Part shown: one piece after another, positions 12,439 through 22,597 of the stretch | How positions within the stretch are numbered: the stretch's first letter is position 1 | Layout of the letters: every line of letters starts with the position of its first letter | DNA from: a bacterium | GTDB lineage: Bacteria; Vulcanimicrobiota; Vulcanimicrobiia; Vulcanimicrobiales; Vulcanimicrobiaceae | Length of the DNA: 64,000 bases | Assembly: GCA_021790935.1 (NCBI GenBank) | Contig: JAJYFL010000012.1 | Coordinates: forward strand, 1 to 64,000 | Direction of reading: 5' to 3' | Position numbers and translations under genes: made by a program | Notes under the pieces: model-generated | Databases searched by the model: none | What the model was told of the DNA's origin: nothing | What the model saw: the letters and a program-made list of their open reading frames with translations, nothing else

Positions 12439-12945
12439 ATGACGATCGCACAACTCAATGCGGCCGACCGCGCGACCTTTGTGGCGCAGCTCGGTTTCGC
12501 ATTCGAAGATTCGCCGTGGATTGCGGATGCCGCTTGGGAGAGACGCCCGTTTGCCGACGCCGGCGCGCTGCACGCGGCCATGCTCGCCGTCCTTGCCGAT
12601 GCGCCGGAGGAACGGCGGGTCGCGCTCATTGCGGCGCACCCGGATCTCGCCGGACGAGTAGCGCGCGAGGGGCGGCTGACACCGGCCTCGAGCGCCGAGC
12701 AATCCGCAGCCGGGCTCGACCGGCTCTCGCCGGAGGAGGTCGAACGCTTCGACGCGCTCAACGGCGCGTACCGCGCCCGCTTCGGGTTTCCGTTCGTCAT
12801 CTGCGCTCGCGAGCACACTACATCCTCGATCCTTGCGGCGCTCGCGGCGCGAGCCTCCAACGATCGTACGACCGAGATCTCGGCGGCACTCGCCGAGATC
12901 GGAAAGATCGTGCGGCTTCGCCTGCGCGATGCGGTGACCGGCTGA
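12439..12945 (+). CDS. uraD: OHCU decarboxylase
   Basis: A 168-residue enzyme that decarboxylates 2-oxo-4-hydroxy-4-carboxy-5-ureidoimidazoline to S-allantoin, the third step from urate. Family signatures are the catalytic His in IAAHPDLAGR, SSAEQSAAGL with its conserved Glu, and the C-terminal YRARFGFPFVICAREHT. ATG follows GCGGAGCGAG. It is the first gene of a three-gene plus-strand operon. Its TGA overlaps the ATG of the urate oxidase gene by one base, and the HIU hydrolase follows, so the three consecutive urate-degrading steps are cotranslated. Confidence 0.93.
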   Translation: MTIAQLNAADRATFVAQLGFAFEDSPWIADAAWERRPFADAGALHAAMLAVLADAPEERRVALIAAHPDLAGRVAREGRLTPASSAEQSAAGLDRLSPEEVERFDALNGAYRARFGFPFVICAREHTTSSILAALAARASNDRTTEISAALAEIGKIVRLRLRDAVTG

Positions 12946-14147
12946 TGTCGTCCTACGTTCTCGAATGGCTGAACCTCCTCGTTCGCTGGCTGCACTTCAC
13001 GGCGGGCATCGCCTGGATCGGCACGTCGTTCTACTTCGTATGGCTCGACGATACGCTGACGCCGCCCCAGAAGCCCGAGGACGTGCGCCGCGGCGTCTTG
13101 GGCGAAGTGTGGTCCGTGCACGGCGGAGGGTTCTACCACAACCAAAAATATCTCACGGGTCCGAAGGGCGAGCCGCTGACCGAGCACCTCCACTGGTTCA
13201 AGTGGGAGGCCTACGCAACGTGGCTCTCCGGCATGGCGATGCTCGCGATCGTATATTGGATCGGCGCCGGCACCTACCTCATCGACAAGAGCGTGATGAA
13301 TCTCACGCCGGCGGCGGCCATCGCGATCAGCATCGCGACCCTCGCGGTGGGCTGGTTCGTCTACGACGCGCTCTGCCGCCTGTTCGCCGATCGGCCGCTG
13401 CTGCTGGGCGGCATCGTCTACGTCTTGCTCGCGCTCGCAGCGTGGGGACTCTCGCACGTCTTCGCAGCGCAAGCCGCGTACATGCACGTCGGCGCGATCA
13501 TCGGCACGATCATGGTCGCGAACGTCTTTTTTTGGATCATCCCGGGCCAGCGCAAGATGCTGGCCGACATACGCGCAGGTCGCGAGCCCGACCCGCGCCC
13601 CGGGCAGCTCGCGAAGATTCGCTCCGTTCACAACACGTACTTTACGCTTCCCGTGCTCTTCATCATGATCAGCGCACACTATCCGATGACCTACGACAAT
13701 CGGTACGGATGGCTCGTGCTCGCGGTCATCGGCCTCGCCGGCGTCTTGCTGCGGTACTTCTTCGTCCTCAGCCACAAGAACAAGATCGTTCCGGCGCTTC
13801 CGATCGCCGCAGCCGTGCTTCTCGCCGCCGCGGCGATAGCCATCGCACCGCATCCGCGTTCGCTCCCGGCCGCGGCGAGCAGCGTTACGTTCGCGCAGGT
13901 GCGGCCGGTCATTGCGCAGCGGTGCGCAGTCTGCCACTCACCGGTGCCGGTGCAGCCCGGATTCGCGGCGCCGCCGGACGGCGTGCTGCTGGATACGCCC
14001 GCGCACATCCGCGCCAACGCCTCGCGCATCTACCTGCAAGCCGTCCAAACCCACGCAATGCCGCTAGGCAACGTTACCGCGATGACGCAAGCGGAACGCA
14101 CGCTCGTCGGCGCGTGGATCGCGGATGGCGCGAAGGTGACGCCGTGA
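12945..14147 (+). CDS. puuD: Membrane-bound urate oxidase with C-terminal cytochrome c domain
   Basis: A 400-residue PuuD-type enzyme oxidising urate to 5-hydroxyisourate, with electrons passed to a heme and not directly to oxygen as in soluble uricase. The N-terminal ~300 residues carry about eight membrane helices (LLVRWLHFTAGIAWIGTSF, WLSGMAMLAIVYWIG, TIMVANVFFWIIPGQRKM). The C-terminus has a c-type heme motif CAVCH at residues 327-331 and a distal Met-rich HAMPLGN segment, consistent with a cytochrome c fold facing the periplasm. The start overlaps the uraD stop (TGATG), and the end overlaps the HIU hydrolase start (GTGA). Identification rests on family resemblance and context. Confidence 0.9.
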   Translation: MSSYVLEWLNLLVRWLHFTAGIAWIGTSFYFVWLDDTLTPPQKPEDVRRGVLGEVWSVHGGGFYHNQKYLTGPKGEPLTEHLHWFKWEAYATWLSGMAMLAIVYWIGAGTYLIDKSVMNLTPAAAIAISIATLAVGWFVYDALCRLFADRPLLLGGIVYVLLALAAWGLSHVFAAQAAYMHVGAIIGTIMVANVFFWIIPGQRKMLADIRAGREPDPRPGQLAKIRSVHNTYFTLPVLFIMISAHYPMTYDNRYGWLVLAVIGLAGVLLRYFFVLSHKNKIVPALPIAAAVLLAAAAIAIAPHPRSLPAAASSVTFAQVRPVIAQRCAVCHSPVPVQPGFAAPPDGVLLDTPAHIRANASRIYLQAVQTHAMPLGNVTAMTQAERTLVGAWIADGAKVTP

Positions 14148-14479
14148 GTGGGCTCTCGACGCACGTTCTCGACATTGCGCGCGGCGTTCCCGGCGCTCGC
14201 ATCGAGGTCGCGCTCTTACGCAGCGAGGGAGAGGTTCGCACGCCGGTCGCGCGTGCGTGGACCGATGACGGCGGACGCATCGCCGGCCCGTTCGACGGCG
14301 AGCTCGAACCGGGGTGGTACGAACTCGTCTTTACGGTCGGGGCCTACTTCAAACGCCTGGAAAGCCCATCGTTCTACGACGAGATTGCGGTCCGCTTTCG
14401 CATCGAAGAAGGTGCGGCGCACTATCACGTCCCGCTCTTACTCGCACCGTACGGATATTCGACCTATCGCGGCAGCTAG
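14144..14479 (+). CDS. uraH: 5-hydroxyisourate hydrolase (transthyretin-like)
   Basis: A 111-residue enzyme converting 5-hydroxyisourate to OHCU. It shows the hallmark N-terminal LSTHVLDIARG, the internal VALLRSEGE and the C-terminal tetrapeptide YRGS that distinguishes HIU hydrolases from transthyretins. His ligands in STHVLD and YHVPLLLAPYGYSTYRGS are present. Starts at GTG overlapping the puuD stop by four bases, so it is translationally coupled. It completes the urate-to-allantoin set with the two genes before it. No signal peptide, so cytoplasmic. Confidence 0.95.
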   Translation: MSGLSTHVLDIARGVPGARIEVALLRSEGEVRTPVARAWTDDGGRIAGPFDGELEPGWYELVFTVGAYFKRLESPSFYDEIAVRFRIEEGAAHYHVPLLLAPYGYSTYRGS

Positions 14480-14871
14480 CGCCGGCTGGCGCGCTCCTCA
14501 CCGGTGGCGAGCTTGTACGCGGCCCAACCGCCGTACGCGGAGATGTCCGCGTATCCGCGCTCCTGAATGAGCGTACGGGGATAGAGCATCGCCGGGGCTG
14601 AGGTGCCGTCGTCGAGGAGAATCGGCGCTTCGTAGAGATCGGGCGGCTCGGTCGAGAGCATATGAGCGTGTTGTGCCGGCGTGAACTCGTAGAGCTCGCC
14701 CGGGATCGAGATGCCGCCGATATCGACTTCATAGATACCGGGATGCTCGTCCCGTACGCTGTGCAGCCGGTAGCGCGGCGCGGTGCGTGCCTCCCCCAGG
14801 AGACGCGCGTCGCCAAGATTGGCGTGGTTGGGCTGGCCGCTTAACGCGGAGCCGCAGATGAAAAATCGCAT
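14476..14871 (-). CDS. Gamma-glutamylcyclotransferase-fold protein (AtzF C-terminal-like)
   Basis: A 131-residue protein with the signature opening of the GGCT/AIG2 fold (MRFFICGSALSGQPNHANLG) and a central YRLHSVRDEHPGIYEV, followed by GELYEFTPAQHAHML. It resembles the C-terminal domain of allophanate hydrolases more than classical glutathione-degrading cyclotransferases. The fold's catalytic Glu could be in the ELYEF segment. It heads for the urate genes tail-to-tail (four-base overlap) and is the last gene of the minus-strand mocA-puuE-allC run. A role in downstream ureide processing (ureidoglycine, ureidoglycolate or allophanate steps) is therefore plausible but inferred. Confidence 0.75.
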   Translation of the reverse strand: MRFFICGSALSGQPNHANLGDARLLGEARTAPRYRLHSVRDEHPGIYEVDIGGISIPGELYEFTPAQHAHMLSTEPPDLYEAPILLDDGTSAPAMLYPRTLIQERGYADISAYGGWAAYKLATGEERASRR

Positions 14872-14880
14872 GGCGGGATC

Positions 14881-16119
14881 TTAATTCGCGGCGAGCGCGG
14901 CGTCGACCTCGACGAGGGCCGCGGCGAGCGCTTCGACGCCCATCTCGAGATCGGCGTCGTCGGTCCGCTCGGCATCGACGTGGCTGCGCCCGCCGATGCT
15001 CGGCACGAAGAGCATCGCCGCCGGGGCGATCTGCGCCAGAGAGATCGCGTCGTGGCCGGCTCCGCTCGTAACGTCGAGCGCCTGCGGCTCGAAACGCTCG
15101 GCGGCATGCCGCAGCACCCGGCGCAGCGCCGGATTCATCGGCGTCGGCGCACGCGCTTCCAGTCGTTGCGTCGCGATCCGTACGGAGCGCCGCCGCCGCG
15201 CGTCGAACGCCGCGGCGTCCAGCGCATCTTCGATCGCGTCCAGCCGAGCATCGTCGGGCGAGCGCGCGTCGATCGAAAAGATCGCGCGACCGGGAATAAC
15301 GTTCGTCCCGTTAGGCTCCACGGCGATGCGCCCGACCGTTACGACGCACTCGCCGCTTCGTGCCGCCGCGGCCTCGAGCGCGAGGATCAGTTCGGAGGCC
15401 GCGCAGAGCGCGTCGGAGCGTCCATCCATCGGAACGGTGCCGGCATGCCCGCTCGTGCCGTCGACGACGGCACGGTATCGGCGCTGCCCGGCGATCGCCG
15501 TGACGATGCCGAGAGCGACGCCCGCGCGCTCGAGCACCGGCCCCTGTTCGACGTGGAGCTCGACGTAGGCAGCGACGCGCCGGTCGCGGCGCGGCTCGAT
15601 CGCGTCGAGCAGGCCGCCGGCGGGCGACGCCAGCGCGGCACCGAGCGACGTCCCTGCGTCGTCGACGAGCGCGAGCGCCTCGCGTTCGGCTACGATGCCG
15701 GCGAAGACGGAACTGCCCAGACATCCGAGCGGGAACCGGCTGCCCTCTTCGCCCGCCCACGCGACGGCCTCGATCGGACGCTGGGTCGTCAGGCCGCGCG
15801 CGTCGAGCAGTTCGAGCGCGCAGAGCGCGGCGACGACGCCGTAGGCGCCGTCGTACGCGCCGCCCGTGGGCACGGTGTCCAGGTGTGACCCTACGAGCAG
15901 CGGTGCGGCATCGGCGCGGGCGCCGCGGCGGCGAGCGAAGAGATTGCCTACGCGATCTTGCGTGAGAGCGTAGTTATCGGCGCGAGCCCACGCTGCGAAA
16001 AGTTCGCGCGCGGCTCGCTCGGGCGGGGTTGCCAGCCCGCGCGAGATTCCGGCGTCGTGCCGCCCGATGCGCGCCAGCTCGGCGAGGCGCGCTACGACGT
16101 TGGTGCCGTCAGCCGTCAT
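14881..16119 (-). CDS. allC: Allantoate amidohydrolase / N-carbamoyl amidohydrolase (M20)
   Basis: A 412-residue binuclear metalloenzyme of the M20/hydantoinase-carbamoylase family. Metal ligands are visible: His and Asp in VGSHLDTVPTGGAYDGAYG, Glu in WAGEEGSRFP, His in ELHVEQGPVLE and His in TSGAGHDA. Given its neighbours it most likely cleaves allantoate to ureidoglycine, ammonia and CO2. N-carbamoyl-amino-acid hydrolase activity cannot be excluded from sequence alone. I chose ATG 16119, which overlaps the puuE stop as ATGA, over an in-frame TTG at 16143. It follows allantoinase directly, as expected for consecutive steps. Confidence 0.88.
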   Translation of the reverse strand: MTADGTNVVARLAELARIGRHDAGISRGLATPPERAARELFAAWARADNYALTQDRVGNLFARRRGARADAAPLLVGSHLDTVPTGGAYDGAYGVVAALCALELLDARGLTTQRPIEAVAWAGEEGSRFPLGCLGSSVFAGIVAEREALALVDDAGTSLGAALASPAGGLLDAIEPRRDRRVAAYVELHVEQGPVLERAGVALGIVTAIAGQRRYRAVVDGTSGHAGTVPMDGRSDALCAASELILALEAAAARSGECVVTVGRIAVEPNGTNVIPGRAIFSIDARSPDDARLDAIEDALDAAAFDARRRRSVRIATQRLEARAPTPMNPALRRVLRHAAERFEPQALDVTSGAGHDAISLAQIAPAAMLFVPSIGGRSHVDAERTDDADLEMGVEALAAALVEVDAALAAN

Positions 16120-17024
16120 CGCGGCGGGTGATTCGCGATCCAATGACGAGCGATGTCGACGCGCCGGCAGATCCAGACGTCCTCGTGCAGGGCGACGTGG
16201 TCGAGAAAGCGCTCGAGCGCGGCCGTACGCCCCGGGCGGCCGGCCAAACGCGCGTGCAGCCCGACCGACATCATCTTCGGGTGCGTCTTCCCCTCGCGGT
16301 ACAGGACGTCGAACGCGTCGCGCATGTATTCGAAGTAGCCCGACGGCGACGAGAAGCCGGGCGCGACGGCGAACTTCATGTCGTTGACGTCGAGCGTGTA
16401 CGGAACGACCAGATGGTTCTTCCCGGAGACCTTGACCCAGTAGGGCAGATCGTCGTTATAGGCGTCGGAGTCGTATAAGAAACCGCCCTCTTCCACGACG
16501 AGGCGGCGCGTGTTCAGGCTCGGGGCGTAGCGGCAGTACCAGCCGTAGGGGCGCTCGCCGGTCGTTCGTGCGATCGACTCGACCGCCATGCGCATCTGCT
16601 CGCGCTCTTGCGCTTCGCTCATCGCGTGAAAGTCGATCCAGCGCCAGCCGTGCGAACAGACTTCGTGCTTCGCCTCGCGAATCGCGCGCGCCGCCTCGGG
16701 GTTGCGCTCGAGTGCCAGCGCCGCGCCGAAGACGGTTATCGCGATCTCGCGTTCCGCGAAGAGGCGCATCAGGCGCCAGAAGCCGGCACGGCTGCCATAC
16801 TCGTAGACCGATTCCACGATGAGATCGCGCTGGCCGGGGCCGAGGGCCGCGCCCGGCACCTCGGTGAGGTACGTCTCCGAATGTCCGTCGCCGTTGGAGA
16901 TAGAGTACTCCGAGCCCTCTTCGTAATTCATCACGATCTGCAGCGCGAGACGGGCGTCGCCCGGCCATCGCGGGTTTGGAGGATTCGCTCCGTAACCAAT
17001 GAGATCGCGTGGTTGAGCGTTCAC
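16116..17024 (-). CDS. puuE: Allantoinase of the polysaccharide-deacetylase-like PuuE type
   Basis: A protein of about 302 residues opening S-allantoin to allantoate. It is the metal-light PuuE type and not the amidohydrolase-superfamily AllB. Conserved PuuE strings are RDLIGYGANPPNPRWPGDAR, ALQIVMNYEEGSEYS, EVPGAALGPGQRDLIVESVYEYG, EVCSHGWRWIDFH and MMSVGLHARLAGRPGR. The start is uncertain: GTG 17024 fits the short leader usual before PRDLIGYG, and an in-frame TTG at 17042 would overlap the mocA stop. Located between mocA and allC in one operon. Confidence 0.92.
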   Translation of the reverse strand: MNAQPRDLIGYGANPPNPRWPGDARLALQIVMNYEEGSEYSISNGDGHSETYLTEVPGAALGPGQRDLIVESVYEYGSRAGFWRLMRLFAEREIAITVFGAALALERNPEAARAIREAKHEVCSHGWRWIDFHAMSEAQEREQMRMAVESIARTTGERPYGWYCRYAPSLNTRRLVVEEGGFLYDSDAYNDDLPYWVKVSGKNHLVVPYTLDVNDMKFAVAPGFSSPSGYFEYMRDAFDVLYREGKTHPKMMSVGLHARLAGRPGRTAALERFLDHVALHEDVWICRRVDIARHWIANHPPR

Positions 17025-17031
17025 GTTTGAG

Positions 17032-17589
17032 TCATTCGACAAGCGCGTTCAAAGCCTCCGGGGTGTCGATATCGAGGTAGGCGCCGAGGTCGTCCATCTC
17101 GAGTTGCAGGCGCAGCAGCGACGGATCGTCGCGGAGCAGTTGGAGCGTGTCGCCGCGTGGTAAAGAGGCGATCTTGCGCCGCGCAGCGACCGAAAGGAAG
17201 ACGGGATGCCCCGGCTCGTCGGCGCGGATCGGATAGACCACGTCGGCCTCGCCGGCACGTTCGCAGACCGCGCGAATCAGCGCGGCGCTCGCCAGCGGTT
17301 TGTCCGCGAGCAGGAGGACGATCGAGGATTCGGGGTCGAGGGCGGCATCGGCCAGCGCCAGCGAGTGCGACATTCCAAGGCTGGGCGCATCGTTGACGCA
17401 GACGGCCGCGTGGCTGTTCCCCGTCAGCGCGCGGGCGACGTCGGGGCCGGCAACCACAAGCGGGTTCCATTCACGCGCAGCCTCGATCGTATGCTCGACC
17501 ATCAGCTTGCCTCGAAACGGAAGGAGCAGCTTCTGCGTGCCCATGCGGCGCGACTGGCCGGCCGCAAGGATAACGGCGCGTACGCTCAC
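17032..17589 (-). CDS. mocA: MocA-like molybdenum-cofactor nucleotidyltransferase
   Basis: A 185-residue NTP-transferase with the N-terminal signature ILAAGQSRRMGTQKLLLPF and a catalytic/metal segment LLLADKP (often DQP in the family). GHPVFL lies in the C-terminal half. MocA-type enzymes attach CMP to molybdopterin to make the MCD cofactor used by xanthine dehydrogenase-family enzymes. The xanthine dehydrogenase genes start divergently 80 bases away, which supports the assignment. Starts at GTG. It is the first gene of the minus-strand operon mocA-puuE-allC-GGCT. An FAD- or sugar-type nucleotidyltransferase is the less likely alternative. Confidence 0.85.
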   Translation of the reverse strand: MSVRAVILAAGQSRRMGTQKLLLPFRGKLMVEHTIEAAREWNPLVVAGPDVARALTGNSHAAVCVNDAPSLGMSHSLALADAALDPESSIVLLLADKPLASAALIRAVCERAGEADVVYPIRADEPGHPVFLSVAARRKIASLPRGDTLQLLRDDPSLLRLQLEMDDLGAYLDIDTPEALNALVE

Positions 17590-17669
17590 GGCCGGTTTTC
17601 AAACATAACGTACTCCCGTTGCCGCAGGTGCGCAATGGCTTGCGCGCGGCCTTGGTGAACTTCCGAGAT

Positions 17670-19085
17670 ATGTGGAAGCGGTACCTCCAACCGGGGACGC
17701 TCCAGGAGGCGCTCGGCCTCTTGGAGGAGCGGGACGAAGGCAGGCGCGTCGTGGCCGGCGGAACCGACATTCTCGTCGAACTGCAGCGCGGCGGAAAGCC
17801 GGCCGATACGCTGCTGGACATCACGAAGATCGAGGGTTTGCGCTACGTGCGCGTGGAGGGCGACGAGATCGCGATCGGCGGTCTGGCTACCCACAACGAT
17901 ATTCTAGCCTCGCCCGACTGCGTGGCGCACGCGCTGCCGCTGGTGCAGGCATGCGCCGAGGTCGGTGCCCCGCAGATTCGCGCGCGCGGCACGATCGCCG
18001 GGAATCTCCTCACCGCATCGCCGGCCAACGACACGATCGCACCGCTGGTGGCGCTGCGCGCCTGCGTGACGCTGCGCAGCCGTTCGGGAACGAGGAGCGT
18101 CCCAATCGACGCGTTCTTCGAAGGGTTCCGCAAGACGGTCGTCCGGCCCGACGAACTGCTGACGGAGATTCGTTTCAAGAAGTTGCAGGGCGGGCGGCGC
18201 GGATTGTTCTTAAAGCTCGGCCTCCGCCGCGCGCAGGCCATCTCCGTCATCGACGTTGCGTTCGTCCTGCGATTCGACGGAGATGTCGTGCGCGAAGCCG
18301 ATATCGCGCTCGGCTGCCTGGCACCGACCGTCATCCACGCGGCGAGCGCGCAAGCGTATCTGCGCGGTAAGCGCCTGGATGCGCCGGTGCGTGAAGAAGC
18401 CGCGCGCCGTGCCTGCGCGGACGCCTCCCCGATCGACGACCTGCGCGGATCGGCCGGCTACCGTGCGACGGCGCTGGCCGTCTTCATCGCCGATGGTCTG
18501 CAGCGCATCGCCGAGGATCGCTGCGCCGACGGTCTGGCGTCTGCGCCGGTCCTGCTCGATACGGGTGAGGTGTCGCCGGCGCTGCACGCTCCGTTCGCGG
18601 GAACGATCGAAACGGTCGTCAACGGGCTGCCGATGGAGATCGACGGAGCGGAGTGCAAGACGCTGCTCGAAGCCTTGCGCGAGAACGCGCACCTCACCGG
18701 CGCGAAAGAAGGCTGCGCCGAAGGCGAGTGTGGCGCATGCACCGTGTGGCTCGATGGCCGCGCGGTTATGTCGTGCCTGGTGCCGGCTCCGCAGGCTCAC
18801 GGCTGCGCGGTGACCACGATCGAGGGCCTGGCGGCCGGCGAACGCCTGCATCCGCTTCAACAAGCGTATATCGATCGCGGGGCCGTGCAATGCGGCTTCT
18901 GCATTCCGGGGATGCTCATGGCCGGCGCGAAGCTGCTGCAGGAGCATCCGCATCCGACGCTGCCGCAGCACCAAACGGCGATCAGCGGGAATATCTGCCG
19001 CTGTACCGGCTATCGAAAGATCCTCGACGCGATGGTCGAGGCGAGCGAACGGATCGCTCCGCAGGCCGAGACGACGCGCGTATGA
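17670..19085 (+). CDS. xdhB: Xanthine dehydrogenase, FAD and 2Fe-2S domains fused
   Basis: A 471-residue electron-transfer subunit. Residues ~1-280 are the FAD-binding domain (VAGGTDILVELQRG, RARGTIAGNLLTASPANDT) with its C-terminal CO-dehydrogenase-flavoprotein-like part. Residues ~300-471 form the two-cluster iron-sulphur domain: first cluster Cys in KEGCAEGECGACTVW, second in VQCGFCIPGML and GNICRCTGYRKI. Many bacteria encode the two domains separately, or fuse them in the opposite order. ATG 17670 gives the family N-terminus MWKRYLQPGTLQEAL, and upstream frame to 17619 is not conserved. TGA overlaps the catalytic-subunit ATG. Confidence 0.92.
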   Translation: MWKRYLQPGTLQEALGLLEERDEGRRVVAGGTDILVELQRGGKPADTLLDITKIEGLRYVRVEGDEIAIGGLATHNDILASPDCVAHALPLVQACAEVGAPQIRARGTIAGNLLTASPANDTIAPLVALRACVTLRSRSGTRSVPIDAFFEGFRKTVVRPDELLTEIRFKKLQGGRRGLFLKLGLRRAQAISVIDVAFVLRFDGDVVREADIALGCLAPTVIHAASAQAYLRGKRLDAPVREEAARRACADASPIDDLRGSAGYRATALAVFIADGLQRIAEDRCADGLASAPVLLDTGEVSPALHAPFAGTIETVVNGLPMEIDGAECKTLLEALRENAHLTGAKEGCAEGECGACTVWLDGRAVMSCLVPAPQAHGCAVTTIEGLAAGERLHPLQQAYIDRGAVQCGFCIPGMLMAGAKLLQEHPHPTLPQHQTAISGNICRCTGYRKILDAMVEASERIAPQAETTRV

Positions 19086-21289
19086 CCCTGCTCGGCAAGC
19101 GTTTGGCGCGGCCCGACGCGCTCGACAAAGTAACCGGGGCCGCGCGATACCCCGCCGATATCGTGCGCGACGACATGCTGCGTTTGAAGGTCGTCTTCGC
19201 ACAGCGGGCGCACGCGCGTATCCTTTCGATTGACACTGCGGAGGCGCTGGCGGTTCCCGGCGTGGTCGCGGTCTTGACCGCTCGCGACGTGCCGTACAAT
19301 CGTTACGGACTCGTCGAAGAGGACCAGCCCGTGCTCTGCGACGGCGTCGTGCGGTACTGGGGCGACAAAGTCGCGCTGGTCGTTGCGGAGAACGTGCGCG
19401 CGGCGGAGCTCGGGGCGCAATGCGTGCGCGTCGCGTACGAGGATCTGCCGGCCGTGACCGATGCGCGCGCGGGCATGGCGCGGGACGCCCAGCGCGTACA
19501 CGCCGGACGGGCAGATAACGTCCTCAAGCACGTTCGCATTCGCAAGGGCGACGTGGAGCGCGCGTTTGCGTCGGCACACGTCGTCCTGGAAGGCGAGTTC
19601 GAGACGTCTTGGCAGGAGCACGCCTACCTGCAGCCCGACGCCGGGGTTGCGTACTACGAAGATGGAACGCTCGTCGTCGAAACGGCCGGACAGTGGCTGC
19701 ACGAGGACCGCAAGCAGCTGGCCAAGATGCTGGGGCTCGCACCCGAAGAAGTCGCCGTCCGCTATGCGAAGATCGGCGGCGCCTTCGGCGGCCGCGAAGA
19801 CTTGAGCGTGCAGACGCTGCTCGCGCTCGCGACGTGGAAGCTGCAACGGCCCACGGCGATCGTCTGGAGCCGCGAGGAGTCGATCGTCGGGCACCACAAG
19901 CGCCATCCGTTCTGGATTCGCGCGAAGTGGGGCGCGGCGCGCGACGGGCGCATCGTCGCCGCGCAGACCGAACTGATCGCCGACGGGGGCGCGTACGCAT
20001 CGACCAGCGCCGAGGTGCTCAAAGGCGCGACGCTCTTTGCAACGAGCACCTACGAAATCGAGAACGTCGCTTCCGACGGCTACGCCGTCTACACCAACAA
20101 TGTGCCGAGCGGCGCATTCCGCGGCTTCGGCGCGCCGCAGGCGCACTTCGCGGCGGAGTGCATGGTGACGCGCCTCGCGCACGCACTCGATCTCGATCCG
20201 GTCGAGATTCGCCGGCGCAACGTCTATCGCGAAGGCAGCATCGAACCGACGCAGCATCCGCTGCCGGCGGGCGTGAGCGCGGCGGCGGTGCTGGAGCGTT
20301 GCGTCGAAGAGGCGCGCGCGCGAATGCACTACGGCATGCCGGATCTGCGGCCGCGCACCCATCTGCGCCGCGGCGTCGGCATCGCTTCGGGCATCAAGAA
20401 CGTCGGCTACTCGTTTGGATTTCCCGAGCAGGCGACGGCCACGGTGGAACTCTTCGGCGAGCGCGAGATCGAGCGGGCGATCGTGCGCGTCGGGGCGGCC
20501 GACGTCGGCCAGGGCGCACACGCCGCACTACGGCAGATCGCGGCGGAGACGCTCGGCCTGCCGCCGCACGCGGTGCGGATGATCACCGACGACAGCGCTC
20601 GTGCGCCCGACGCCGGAAGTGCCTCCGCATCGCGCCTGACCCTCATGGGTGGGCGTGCCGTCAAAGATGCGGCCGACGCGGCGAAAGCGAAGTTTCCCGG
20701 ACCCGACGCAAAGGCCACCGTCCAGTTTCGGCCGCCCGCGACGACCGCGCTCGATCCGCAGACCACTGCCGGGAGGCCGAATTACTCCTACGGTTACGTC
20801 TCGCAGGCCGTCGAGGTCGAGGTCGATACGCGCACGGGGCAGATCCGCATTCTGAAGATCGTCAGCGCGCACGACGTCGGCCGAGCGATCGACGAGCAAC
20901 TCGTCGAGGGACAGATCGAAGGCTGTTTGGCGCAAGCCGTCGGATACGTGCTGACCGAGCATCTGCAATTGCGCGACGGGAAAATTCTCACGCCGCATTT
21001 CAGCACATACCTACTGCCGACGACGCTCGACATGCCGACGGAGGTCTATCCGGTGCTGCTGGAACTGGCCGATCCGAACGGGCCGTTCGGCGCGCGCGGC
21101 GTCGCCGAGATGCCGTTGGTTCCGTTTGCCGGCGCGGTCGCCAATGCAATCTATGCGGCCACCGGCGCGTGGGTCACGCAGCTCCCCATGACCCCGGAGC
21201 GCGTGCTCGCCGCGTTGAGCGCCTCAGCGCAACTCGTCCCGCACGAGCGCCCGCGCGATCCGGTTATGCCGCTCGATCAGCACCGGTAG
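19082..21289 (+). CDS. xdhA: Xanthine dehydrogenase molybdenum-binding subunit
   Basis: A 735-residue molybdopterin subunit oxidising hypoxanthine and xanthine to urate. It begins with the aldehyde oxidase/xanthine dehydrogenase a/b hammerhead (LLGKRLARPDALDKVTGAAR, GVVAVLTARDVP). The cofactor region contains GGAFGGREDLSVQ and GAFRGFGAPQAHFAAE, and the catalytic Glu is in GPFGARGVAEMP. The start overlaps the preceding subunit's stop (ATGA). The end runs 66 bases into the 3' end of the opposing deaminase gene. No XdhC-type insertion chaperone is present in the window. Other purine or aldehyde substrates are possible, but the island argues for xanthine. Confidence 0.9.
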   Translation: MTLLGKRLARPDALDKVTGAARYPADIVRDDMLRLKVVFAQRAHARILSIDTAEALAVPGVVAVLTARDVPYNRYGLVEEDQPVLCDGVVRYWGDKVALVVAENVRAAELGAQCVRVAYEDLPAVTDARAGMARDAQRVHAGRADNVLKHVRIRKGDVERAFASAHVVLEGEFETSWQEHAYLQPDAGVAYYEDGTLVVETAGQWLHEDRKQLAKMLGLAPEEVAVRYAKIGGAFGGREDLSVQTLLALATWKLQRPTAIVWSREESIVGHHKRHPFWIRAKWGAARDGRIVAAQTELIADGGAYASTSAEVLKGATLFATSTYEIENVASDGYAVYTNNVPSGAFRGFGAPQAHFAAECMVTRLAHALDLDPVEIRRRNVYREGSIEPTQHPLPAGVSAAAVLERCVEEARARMHYGMPDLRPRTHLRRGVGIASGIKNVGYSFGFPEQATATVELFGEREIERAIVRVGAADVGQGAHAALRQIAAETLGLPPHAVRMITDDSARAPDAGSASASRLTLMGGRAVKDAADAAKAKFPGPDAKATVQFRPPATTALDPQTTAGRPNYSYGYVSQAVEVEVDTRTGQIRILKIVSAHDVGRAIDEQLVEGQIEGCLAQAVGYVLTEHLQLRDGKILTPHFSTYLLPTTLDMPTEVYPVLLELADPNGPFGARGVAEMPLVPFAGAVANAIYAATGAWVTQLPMTPERVLAALSASAQLVPHERPRDPVMPLDQHR

Positions 21290-22597
21290 GTCGACGTCGA
21301 CGAAGGCGCCGCCCGAGATGCGCACGCGTCCGTCGATCATGCTGAAATCCACGTTGCCCGGCCGGCAGAAGAGCAGGGCCGCCAGCGGATCGTGGACCGC
21401 ACCGCCCGCGAGGCCAAGCGCGTCCAAGCGATAGCCGACGATGTCGGCGGCCATGCCGGGTGCGAGCGTGCCGAGGTCGTCGCGTCCTAAGACCGCGGCG
21501 CCGCCGCGCGTCGCTAGGCGCAGCACGCCGCGTGCCGTCGTTGCGGCGGGATCCCCGCCGACGCGCTGCAGCAGCAGCGCCTGACGCGCCTCGTCGAGCA
21601 TCGACGACGCATCGTTCGAAGCCGAGCCGTCGACGCCCAGAGCGACGCGCGCGCCGGCTGCGGTGAGCGCGCGCAGCGGCGCGATACCGGATCCCAGCCG
21701 CATGTTCGACGTGGGGCAGTGGGCGACGCCCGTCTGCGTGGCTCCCAGCCGCGCGATATCGGCCGGTGCGGGATGCACCGCATGCGCGTGCCAAACGTCG
21801 TTCCCAACCCAGCCGAGCGACTCGGCCAGCTCCACCGGGCGCAGGCCGTATCGCGCGAGGCAATAGCGCTCTTCGTCGAGCGTTTCGGCCAGGTGCGTGT
21901 GCACGTGCACGCCGCAGGAGCGGGCGAGCGCCACGCTCTCGCGCATGAGTTCGGGCGATACGGAGAACGGCGAACACGGTGCGAGCGCGACGCGCGTCAT
22001 CGCGTACCGCGACGGATCGTGATAGAGTTCGATCGCGCGCTGCGAATCGTGGAGAATGAGGCGTTCGTCCTCGACCAGCGAATCGGGCGGCAAGCCGCCC
22101 TTCGATTCGCCAAGCGACATCGATCCGCGCGCCGCGTGGAAGCGCATGCCCATCTCGCGTGCTGCCTCGATCTGATCGTCGATGCGCGCTCCGTTCGGCC
22201 AGACGTAGGCGTGATCGCTCGTGGTCGTACAGCCGGAGAGCATGAGCTCCGCCATCGCCGTCGCCGTCGATACGCGGATCGCCTCGGGCGTCAGGCGAGC
22301 CCAGATCGGGTAGAGTCGCGAGAGCCAGGCGAAGAGGCCGGCGTCTTGCGTCCCCGGTACGTTGCGCGTGAGCGTCTGGAAGAAATGATGGTGCGTGTTG
22401 ATCAGCCCCGGCAGCAGAATGCGTTCGCGCGCGTCGACGACCGTATCGGCGGTCTGCGGTAACTCTGCGGAGTGGCCGACCCGTTCGATGACGCGATCGC
22501 GGACGAATACCGCCCCGCCGGCGAAGGTCGTCTCCGCATCGTCGAAGGTCGCCACGAACGCGGCGTTGCGGATCAGCGTGGTGCTCACGCCGATCAC
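21224..22597 (-). CDS. Guanine / 8-oxoguanine deaminase-like amidohydrolase
   Basis: A 457-residue metal-dependent hydrolase of the amidohydrolase superfamily. It has HxH in GLINTHHHFFQTLTRN, a HTHLAETLDEERYC segment, His in VWHAHAVHP and the catalytic Asp in ALGVDGSASND. The overall pattern matches the branch containing 8-oxoguanine deaminase, hydroxyatrazine hydrolase and ATZ/TRZ enzymes. Next to xanthine dehydrogenase, conversion of guanine to xanthine (or 8-oxoguanine to urate) is the natural role and would feed the pathway. It overlaps the end of xdhA tail-to-tail by 66 bases. Substrate is inferred from context. Confidence 0.8.
   Translation of the reverse strand: MIGVSTTLIRNAAFVATFDDAETTFAGGAVFVRDRVIERVGHSAELPQTADTVVDARERILLPGLINTHHHFFQTLTRNVPGTQDAGLFAWLSRLYPIWARLTPEAIRVSTATAMAELMLSGCTTTSDHAYVWPNGARIDDQIEAAREMGMRFHAARGSMSLGESKGGLPPDSLVEDERLILHDSQRAIELYHDPSRYAMTRVALAPCSPFSVSPELMRESVALARSCGVHVHTHLAETLDEERYCLARYGLRPVELAESLGWVGNDVWHAHAVHPAPADIARLGATQTGVAHCPTSNMRLGSGIAPLRALTAAGARVALGVDGSASNDASSMLDEARQALLLQRVGGDPAATTARGVLRLATRGGAAVLGRDDLGTLAPGMAADIVGYRLDALGLAGGAVHDPLAALLFCRPGNVDFSMIDGRVRISGGAFVDVDLPVLIERHNRIARALVRDELR

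Follow-up and report, generated by a model that had tools for sequence, protein, structure and literature searches.

A small AH_C protein encoded beside allantoate amidohydrolase is probably an unrecognised enzyme of late purine breakdown in two distantly related groups of bacteria

Ureidoglycine aminohydrolase (AllE) and ureidoglycolate lyase (AllA; PF04115) occupy the place in the ureide pathway that we propose here for a small AH_C protein, which differs from both in sequence family. Routes leading from ureidoglycolate with the release of ammonia or of urea are set out in passages of PMC3793230. The described proteins closest to the AH_C protein are (i) the C-terminal domain of AtzF and of the K. 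lactis allophanate hydrolase (KlAH), (ii) c4763 of uropathogenic E. coli, which is also a stand-alone AH_C protein, and (iii) human GGACT. In the K. lactis enzyme the C domain is a decarboxylase, and the histidine of its GAHL motif serves decarboxylation.

The reasoning applied here resembles the discovery of PuuD by association rules, in which, according to excerpts of PMC4562309, a missing step was deduced from the neighbours present and the known enzymes absent. In contrast to PuuD, whose gene was tested by deletion (same excerpts), the role proposed for the AH_C protein comes from the comparison of genomes.

The AH_C gene and its coupling to allC

The window, i.e. the whole stretch of 64,000 nucleotides that was analysed, derives from a genome (G000) of 98.78% completeness. 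It carries genes for all steps from xanthine to allantoate, plus allC. The features surrounding the AH_C gene are as follows:

12439..12945, plus strand: UraD, OHCU decarboxylase (PF09349, 169.8 bits; TIGR03164 over the cut-off)
12945..14147, plus strand: membrane urate oxidase PuuD (PF06181, 424.9 bits; C-terminal CxxCH read in the translation)
14144..14479, plus strand: 5-hydroxyisourate hydrolase-like (HIUase-like) ORF (named from its sequence and a homologue)
14476..14871, minus strand: ureide-type AH_C protein, 131 aa (PF21986, 94.8 bits; clade and invariant residues; model pLDDT 84.9)
14881..16143, start codon provisional, minus strand: AllC, M20 hydantoinase/carbamoylase family amidase of the allantoate amidohydrolase type (TIGR01879)
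16116..17042, minus strand: PuuE allantoinase (TIGR03212, 453.7 bits, cut-off 424.6)
17032..17589, minus strand: MocA-like NTP transferase of the molybdenum cofactor cytidylyltransferase type (PF12804, 104.6 bits)
17619..19085, plus strand: FAD and 2Fe2S parts of xanthine dehydrogenase in a single ORF (named from its sequence; a homologue adjoins XdhA in other loci)
19082..21289, plus strand: molybdenum-binding subunit of xanthine dehydrogenase (named from its sequence)
21224..22597, minus strand: 8-oxoguanine deaminase (NF006055, 670 bits, cut-off 532)

The minus-strand run MocA-PuuE-AllC-AH_C begins with the MocA-like gene and ends with the AH_C gene, and is flanked by the genes of UraD, PuuD, xanthine dehydrogenase and 8-oxoguanine deaminase. 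The original prediction described a 131-residue protein 9 bases after allC, and its frame, length and gap were all borne out: frame 14476-14871 encodes 131 aa with no inner stops, and lies on the same minus strand as allC at a spacing of 9 bases (14872-14880). Since copies with 92% and 94% protein identity are found in two congeners, this is no chance ORF. Its last bases are overlapped by the convergent HIUase-like ORF, whose product is 39% identical to a Pseudanabaena protein labelled uraH. AllC scored 363 bits with TIGR01879, above the cut-off of 204, and 375 bits with its best NCBIfam model, NF006771 (allantoate amidohydrolase), slightly below the cut-off of 399; among its relatives of known structure are E. 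coli AAH (1z2l) and Arabidopsis UAH (4pxb). The MocA-like protein scored 97.6 bits with TIGR03310, below the cut-off of 186.

It had been noted earlier that no ureidoglycine aminohydrolase or ureidoglycolate lyase is encoded nearby. This proved true of the whole genome, in which no match to TIGR03214 or PF04115 was found at E<=0.001. The same genome encodes a single AH_C protein, with no second match to the window protein.

All 44 AH_C matches of the window's phylum, except the window's own, gave 43 further loci; one of them (L032), with a 760-aa frame resembling full-length allophanate hydrolase, was set aside, which left 42 loci from 40 genomes. AllC is the most constant neighbour of AH_C: in 40 of the 42 loci it immediately precedes AH_C on the same strand, and the gap has a median of 8.5 bases (range -4 to 636, fusion excluded). 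PuuE is present within the stretch read in 38 of the 42. Linkage to ureide genes thus recurs outside the window, in these loci and also in cyanobacteria (see below). The commonest gene outside the window's reference set, an adenosine deaminase by reading, separates PuuE from AllC in 10 loci.

A single case among L032-L219 joins AllC and a ureide-type AH_C in one open frame (L057:7756-9396, minus strand, G091), a layout resembling the amidase-AH_C order of AtzF. The AH_C part of this frame has its own ATG, and could therefore also start separately.

Family, motifs and fold of the AH_C protein

The window protein matches the Pfam AH_C family (PF21986) with 94.8 bits (cut-off 27) over residues 2-120, covering positions 2-122 of the 123 in the profile, and the GGACT family (PF06094) with 42.8 bits (cut-off 22.8). 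Among solved structures, 5c5z (c4763) and the C-terminal portion of the allophanate hydrolase 4gyr are the nearest in sequence. The original description of the protein as similar to the AtzF C-terminus agrees with the Pfam match, which identifies it as a stand-alone relative of that domain. We rejected a filing of the protein as AtzF itself, since it has neither the amidase domain nor the GAHL histidine. In Pfam, only AH_C/GGACT was found in the 131 aa, with no amidase-signature N-terminal domain, and the allophanate hydrolase model TIGR02713 gave 46.5 bits against a cut-off of 511. When the window protein and two relatives were compared with NCBIfam, solely whole-allophanate-hydrolase models were matched, far under their cut-offs; thus, no model of the ureide type's own was met. 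Neither TIGR03214 (NCBIfam) nor PF04115 (Pfam) matched the window protein. Four plasmid homologues (L076-L079) were considered as stand-alone relatives and rejected: their AH_C forms the end of frames of 555-647 aa, with front parts that are amidase-like by appearance, and these frames were used solely as AtzF-type rows.

For the comparison of residues, the ureide type was defined by a score of at least 86 bits against the profile of alignment A2, whereas GAHL and GTLM served as sorting motifs for the AtzF and NGTLM rows, respectively (two rows fitted none of the three types). Glu75, Ala9 and Tyr61 are invariant over the 140 ureide-type rows (Glu75 in 140/140), and Cys6, Ser8, Gln13, His43 and Tyr80 nearly so. 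Ala9 stands where the GAHL motif has its histidine, both in the window protein and in the ureide-type rows. As the 10-row AtzF set was itself motif-sorted, our statements on GAHL are based instead on frame length and solved structures: all 7 of the AH_C domains located at the end of frames of at least 568 aa have the histidine, and none (0/7) has Glu at position 75; 4iss and 4gyr have the histidine too. The ureide type shares with the AtzF/KlAH domain Thr30, Tyr34, Glu59 and Trp116, none of which varies among the rows compared, and mostly Arg35; it differs from the AtzF types by Glu75, Tyr80 and Tyr97-Pro98. The NGTLM type has Glu75 and lacks Tyr80. This applies to c4763, which is 29-32% identical to the window protein, has NGTLM in place of CGSAL, and is without Tyr80.

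In a tree of 69 rows, the ureide type falls on one side of a 99/99 branch, the other AH_C types being AtzF-type domains and the NGTLM type, including a relative of E. coli c4763. The cyanobacterial rows form one clade (100/98) among the rows of the window's phylum. The tree holds a sample of the ureide-type rows and all others that were long enough, and its few columns and long branches leave many inner forks weak. The window protein shows the features of the ureide-type clade, i.e. its side of the 99/99 branch, the motifs CGSAL and EPPxxY, and the company of PuuE and AllC. In terms of sequence, the ureide type is a clade separate from the AtzF and c4763 types.

Membership of the AH_C family raises the question of a decarboxylase partner: AllC would hydrolyse the terminal amide to give a carboxylated amine, from which AH_C would remove CO2. 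This reading fits the constancy of AllC as a neighbour, the AtzF-like layout of the natural AllC-AH_C frame and the sequential reactions catalysed by the two AH domains, as reported in a section of PMC5770610. The residues that separate the two types do not favour it, since the ureide type has Ala9 and Glu75 where the long frames have the GAHL histidine and no Glu75. In addition, some genomes have AllC-family genes over the cut-off and no AH_C (G060, G076, G029-G031, G134-G138), and E. coli AllC alone makes ureidoglycine in vitro (excerpts of PMC4016543). We consider a decarboxylase partner unlikely.

Another possibility is that AH_C is a regulatory or other non-catalytic partner with a part in assembling or activating AllC. 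The tight gene coupling and the one fused frame would suit such a protein, as would the conserved dimer interface formed by the AH domains in urea amidolyase (described in part of PMC5770610). However, across the two phyla the AH_C proteins are 52% identical, while the paired AllC proteins are only 33% identical, and the invariant polar residues, including a catalytic-type Glu, point to catalysis. A structural or regulatory role is judged improbable, slightly more so than decarboxylation.

The AlphaFold model of the window protein (pLDDT 84.9, pTM 0.79) has the GGCT/BtrG fold. The best fold matches were c4763 (5c5z, Z 18.0) and the K. lactis urea amidolyase/allophanate hydrolase (5i8i, Z 17.7; 4iss, Z 17.6), followed by human GGACT (3jub and 3jud, Z 12.3-12.5) and 3cry (Z 8.5). 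Through a GGACT-like protein (L209), whose glutamate aligns with both, Glu75 corresponds to the human residue that is replaced by Q in E82Q (3jud); Tyr80 can be matched to the GGACT tyrosine through the same intermediate. The substrate-loop tyrosine of the cyclotransferases is not kept: human GGACT has FVYGTL and the window protein FICGSAL, i.e. YGTL is replaced by CGSA, with Cys6 in place of Tyr. The two proteins also differ in gene company, that of the window protein being urate/allantoin genes, and their structural alignment has only 15-16% identity.

Distribution in the window's phylum and in cyanobacteria

Among 149 genomes of the window's phylum, AH_C was found in 41 and PuuE over the cut-off in 42, with both in 36 (Fisher p 6.5e-23, uncorrected for kinship). 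The co-occurrence with puuE/allC that the original prediction proposed as a check was thus observed, in 36/42 PuuE genomes of the phylum and in cyanobacteria (23/23 vs 0/316). Six genomes have PuuE without AH_C. Four of them, all of one genus (G134, G135, G137, G138), contain a PF04115 lyase (179-184 bits); in the remaining two, the contig stops inside allC (G126) or 139 bases beyond it (G110). In G137, the sole lyase genome read closely, the lyase is followed by allantoicase. The order PuuE - UraD - ureidoglycolate lyase - allantoicase - DUF6986 was recorded at L214:7277-11261, in a distant family of the phylum of which one genome was read.

Five genomes have AH_C without PuuE over the cut-off, and in three (G034, G113, G123) a PuuE piece is present at a contig end. 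The true exceptions are G051, with no AllC beside AH_C, and G032, in which AllC is convergent. The AH_C of G051 (L073:8138-8503) is of the ureide type (53% identical), with zero ureide genes in 16 kb and no PuuE in the genome. At L068:2379-5208, a divergent AH_C (40% identical) is convergent with AllC and located behind an acyl-CoA dehydrogenase, with no PuuE listed; this protein perhaps acts on another carbamoyl substrate. The presence/absence pattern is confounded by descent, all the lyase genomes being of one genus.

The 41 AH_C genomes of the phylum gave no PF04115 match and no AllE over the cut-off, although 14 of them contain sub-cut-off AllE matches (19-28 bits, cut-off 200). Likewise, AllE is over the cut-off in none of the 23 PuuE cyanobacteria; in 6 of these, weaker matches score 20-27 bits. 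A highly divergent cupin enzyme may possibly fill the AllE role. Weak PF04115 relatives (24-46 bits, Pfam cut-off 23) are present in 15 of the 23 PuuE cyanobacteria vs 4 of 21 without PuuE, a contrast blurred by the many small genomes among the 21 controls. Matches to PF04115 were obtained in 28 of 35 cyanobacterial AH_C genomes, all with 24-46 bits vs 179-184 for the lyases of the window's phylum, and a divergent lyase is possible in some cyanobacteria.

Urease gave no match in the window genome and is missing from 20 of the 26 AH_C genomes tested in its phylum. In cyanobacteria it is over the cut-off in 23/23 PuuE genomes and in 6/12 without PuuE. Its scarcity in the phylum would suit the release of ammonia rather than urea, without deciding between them; as a tie-breaker urease was discarded, because 3 of the 4 lyase genomes of the phylum also lack it (1/4 has it).

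These data bear on whether AH_C could be a urea-releasing ureidoglycolate/ureidoglycine lyase, a non-homologous counterpart of AllA that would act after a spontaneous loss of ammonia. This is one form of the explanation that we favour, and a doubtful one. The complementary occurrence of AH_C and the PF04115 lyase in the phylum and the urease of all PuuE cyanobacteria are consistent with it, and ureidoglycine is described as unstable in a passage of PMC4016543. The rarity of urease among the AH_C genomes, including that of the window, counts against it, with the reservation made above for the lyase genomes. Furthermore, the lyase genus may use allantoicase and not AllC (one genome, G137), so that the exchange of AH_C for the lyase may be one of the whole route.

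The cyanobacterial sample consisted of 339 genomes of at least 90% completeness, scanned once for AH_C and once for PuuE (threshold E<=1e-80); the genomes listed by the two scans agree. AH_C of any type was found in 33 and PuuE in 23. The ureide type is present in 23/23 PuuE genomes vs 0/316 others (Fisher 3.5e-36, uncorrected for kinship), and each of the 23 has a copy that shares 59% identity or more with the Pseudanabaena copy or the window protein. Their loci were fetched for the purpose in 21 cases, and those of G162 and G159 were available as L107 and L103. The ten AH_C cyanobacteria without PuuE contain other types, with at most 37% identity, or an AtzF-type fragment (G377). Only 6 of the 23 have PuuE within about 2 kb of AH_C, which means that the association goes beyond physical linkage to PuuE.

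When species genomes were scanned with an alignment headed by the Pseudanabaena copy, 155 stretches were confirmed, and we examined the best 80 of these. All 80 are cyanobacterial by title, an outcome that the leading sequence would favour. At least one of PuuE, AllC, UraD, HIUase, HpxO and PuuD was found in 63 of these best 80 of 155 (AllC in 42, HIUase in 18 and PuuE in 15). The whole-stretch comparison with other AH_C types (63/80 vs 0/18) involves sets of different length (medians of 20.4 vs 9.0 kb), and was therefore redone at fixed distances, with L208 left out: a ureide gene is located within 3 kb of AH_C in 59/80 ureide-type loci vs 0/17 of the other types, and within 4 kb in 61/80 vs 0/17.

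In Pseudanabaena, a ring-opening amidohydrolase gene (L075:9408-10478) is located between AH_C and PuuE, with a homologue in 3 of the best 80 of 155 loci. A different neighbourhood was seen for cyanobacterial NGTLM-type AH_C (L181, L183, L184, L213), which is near two isochorismatase-family hydrolases, separated in L184 by an ABC transporter ATPase; another ureide-like pathway is possible in these loci.

A relative of c4763 is likewise found beside carbamoyl/ureide genes, but with no PuuE or AllC in the stretch. This locus (L080:1405-8612, E. coli plasmid AP026455.1) encodes an isochorismatase-family hydrolase, a CoA-ligase-type protein that may be AllF-like, AllG, a labelled carbamate kinase, the c4763-type AH_C and a purine/allantoin-type permease. 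Its AH_C gene is present in 1543 of 5426 complete E. coli genomes.

The distribution is also relevant to the public label of the Pseudanabaena copy, gamma-glutamylcyclotransferase, according to which AH_C would be an ordinary gamma-glutamyl(amine) cyclotransferase, located here by chance. The GGACT Pfam match and fold (Z 12.5 to 3jud), together with a catalytic Glu and a GQPNH stretch common to human GGACT, agree with the label. However, a protein confined to the PuuE cyanobacteria (23/23 vs 0/316) and adjoined by AllC in 40 of 42 loci is a poor fit to a housekeeping enzyme, and the loop Tyr has been replaced by Cys6. We regard this explanation as very improbable.

Proposed role of the ureide-type AH_C

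We conclude with strong confidence that the AH_C protein belongs to the urate/allantoin pathway, and propose that in both groups of bacteria it is probably an enzyme, so far unrecognised, of one of the late steps by which purines are degraded. The observations behind this proposal are its operon position, the co-occurrence with PuuE, the absence of two known families, the separate clade, the GGCT-type fold and the catalytic-type glutamate. The earlier reading is upheld in part, as regards linkage to the ureide pathway (AllC adjoins 40/42; 23/23 PuuE cyanobacteria); the protein is not AtzF and is without its amidase domain.

Since the known handlers searched for (AllE and AllA) are missing, and the genus with the lyase is without AH_C, the simplest reading is that AH_C performs the step after AllC. 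We find it reasonably likely that it works directly after AllC, in place of AllE or AllA, an estimate that covers both forms of the product. The substrate would be ureidoglycine or ureidoglycolate, released by AllC. Our first choice of product is ureidoglycolate plus ammonia, which we put forward tentatively; direct loss of urea is the second choice, and less likely.

Ureidoglycine carries a free amino-acid head, as do gamma-glutamyl substrates. After its release by AllC, this head would be bound in the AH_C pocket, in the way that cyclotransferases bind the glutamyl head, and Glu75 would relay a proton from one nitrogen to the one that leaves; the C-N bond at the central carbon would then break, with the expulsion of ammonia or urea. 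A proton transfer from the amine to the leaving nitrogen is attributed to the catalytic glutamate of the cyclotransferase family in the sections of PMC12756093 that deal with it. Ureidoglycolate may be converted to glyoxylate by the same AllC, acting before and after AH_C; one AllC might serve twice because its family contains ureidoglycolate amidohydrolases (4pxb). We give even chances to a scheme in which, in the window's phylum and in many cyanobacteria, the ureide-type AH_C breaks ureidoglycine/ureidoglycolate on a cyclotransferase fold, with a glutamate shuttling the proton; it would be a further, non-homologous way of carrying out the reaction that follows allantoate amidohydrolase.

In a search of the open-licence literature with exact spellings, gamma-glutamylcyclotransferase was never paired with allantoate and operon, nor with the allophanate hydrolase C-terminal domain; an earlier description elsewhere is possible. 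If the proposal is true, it would close a gap in the use of urate and allantoin in two bacterial groups and correct a misleading gamma-glutamylcyclotransferase label. It also provides an association rule, by which PuuE and AllC without AllE/AllA predict the ureide-type AH_C clade. The AIG2/GGCT fold would gain a role in nitrogen recovery, and the cyclotransferase fold a new activity, and the role of the ureide type may hint at the function of the c4763-type proteins of E. coli.
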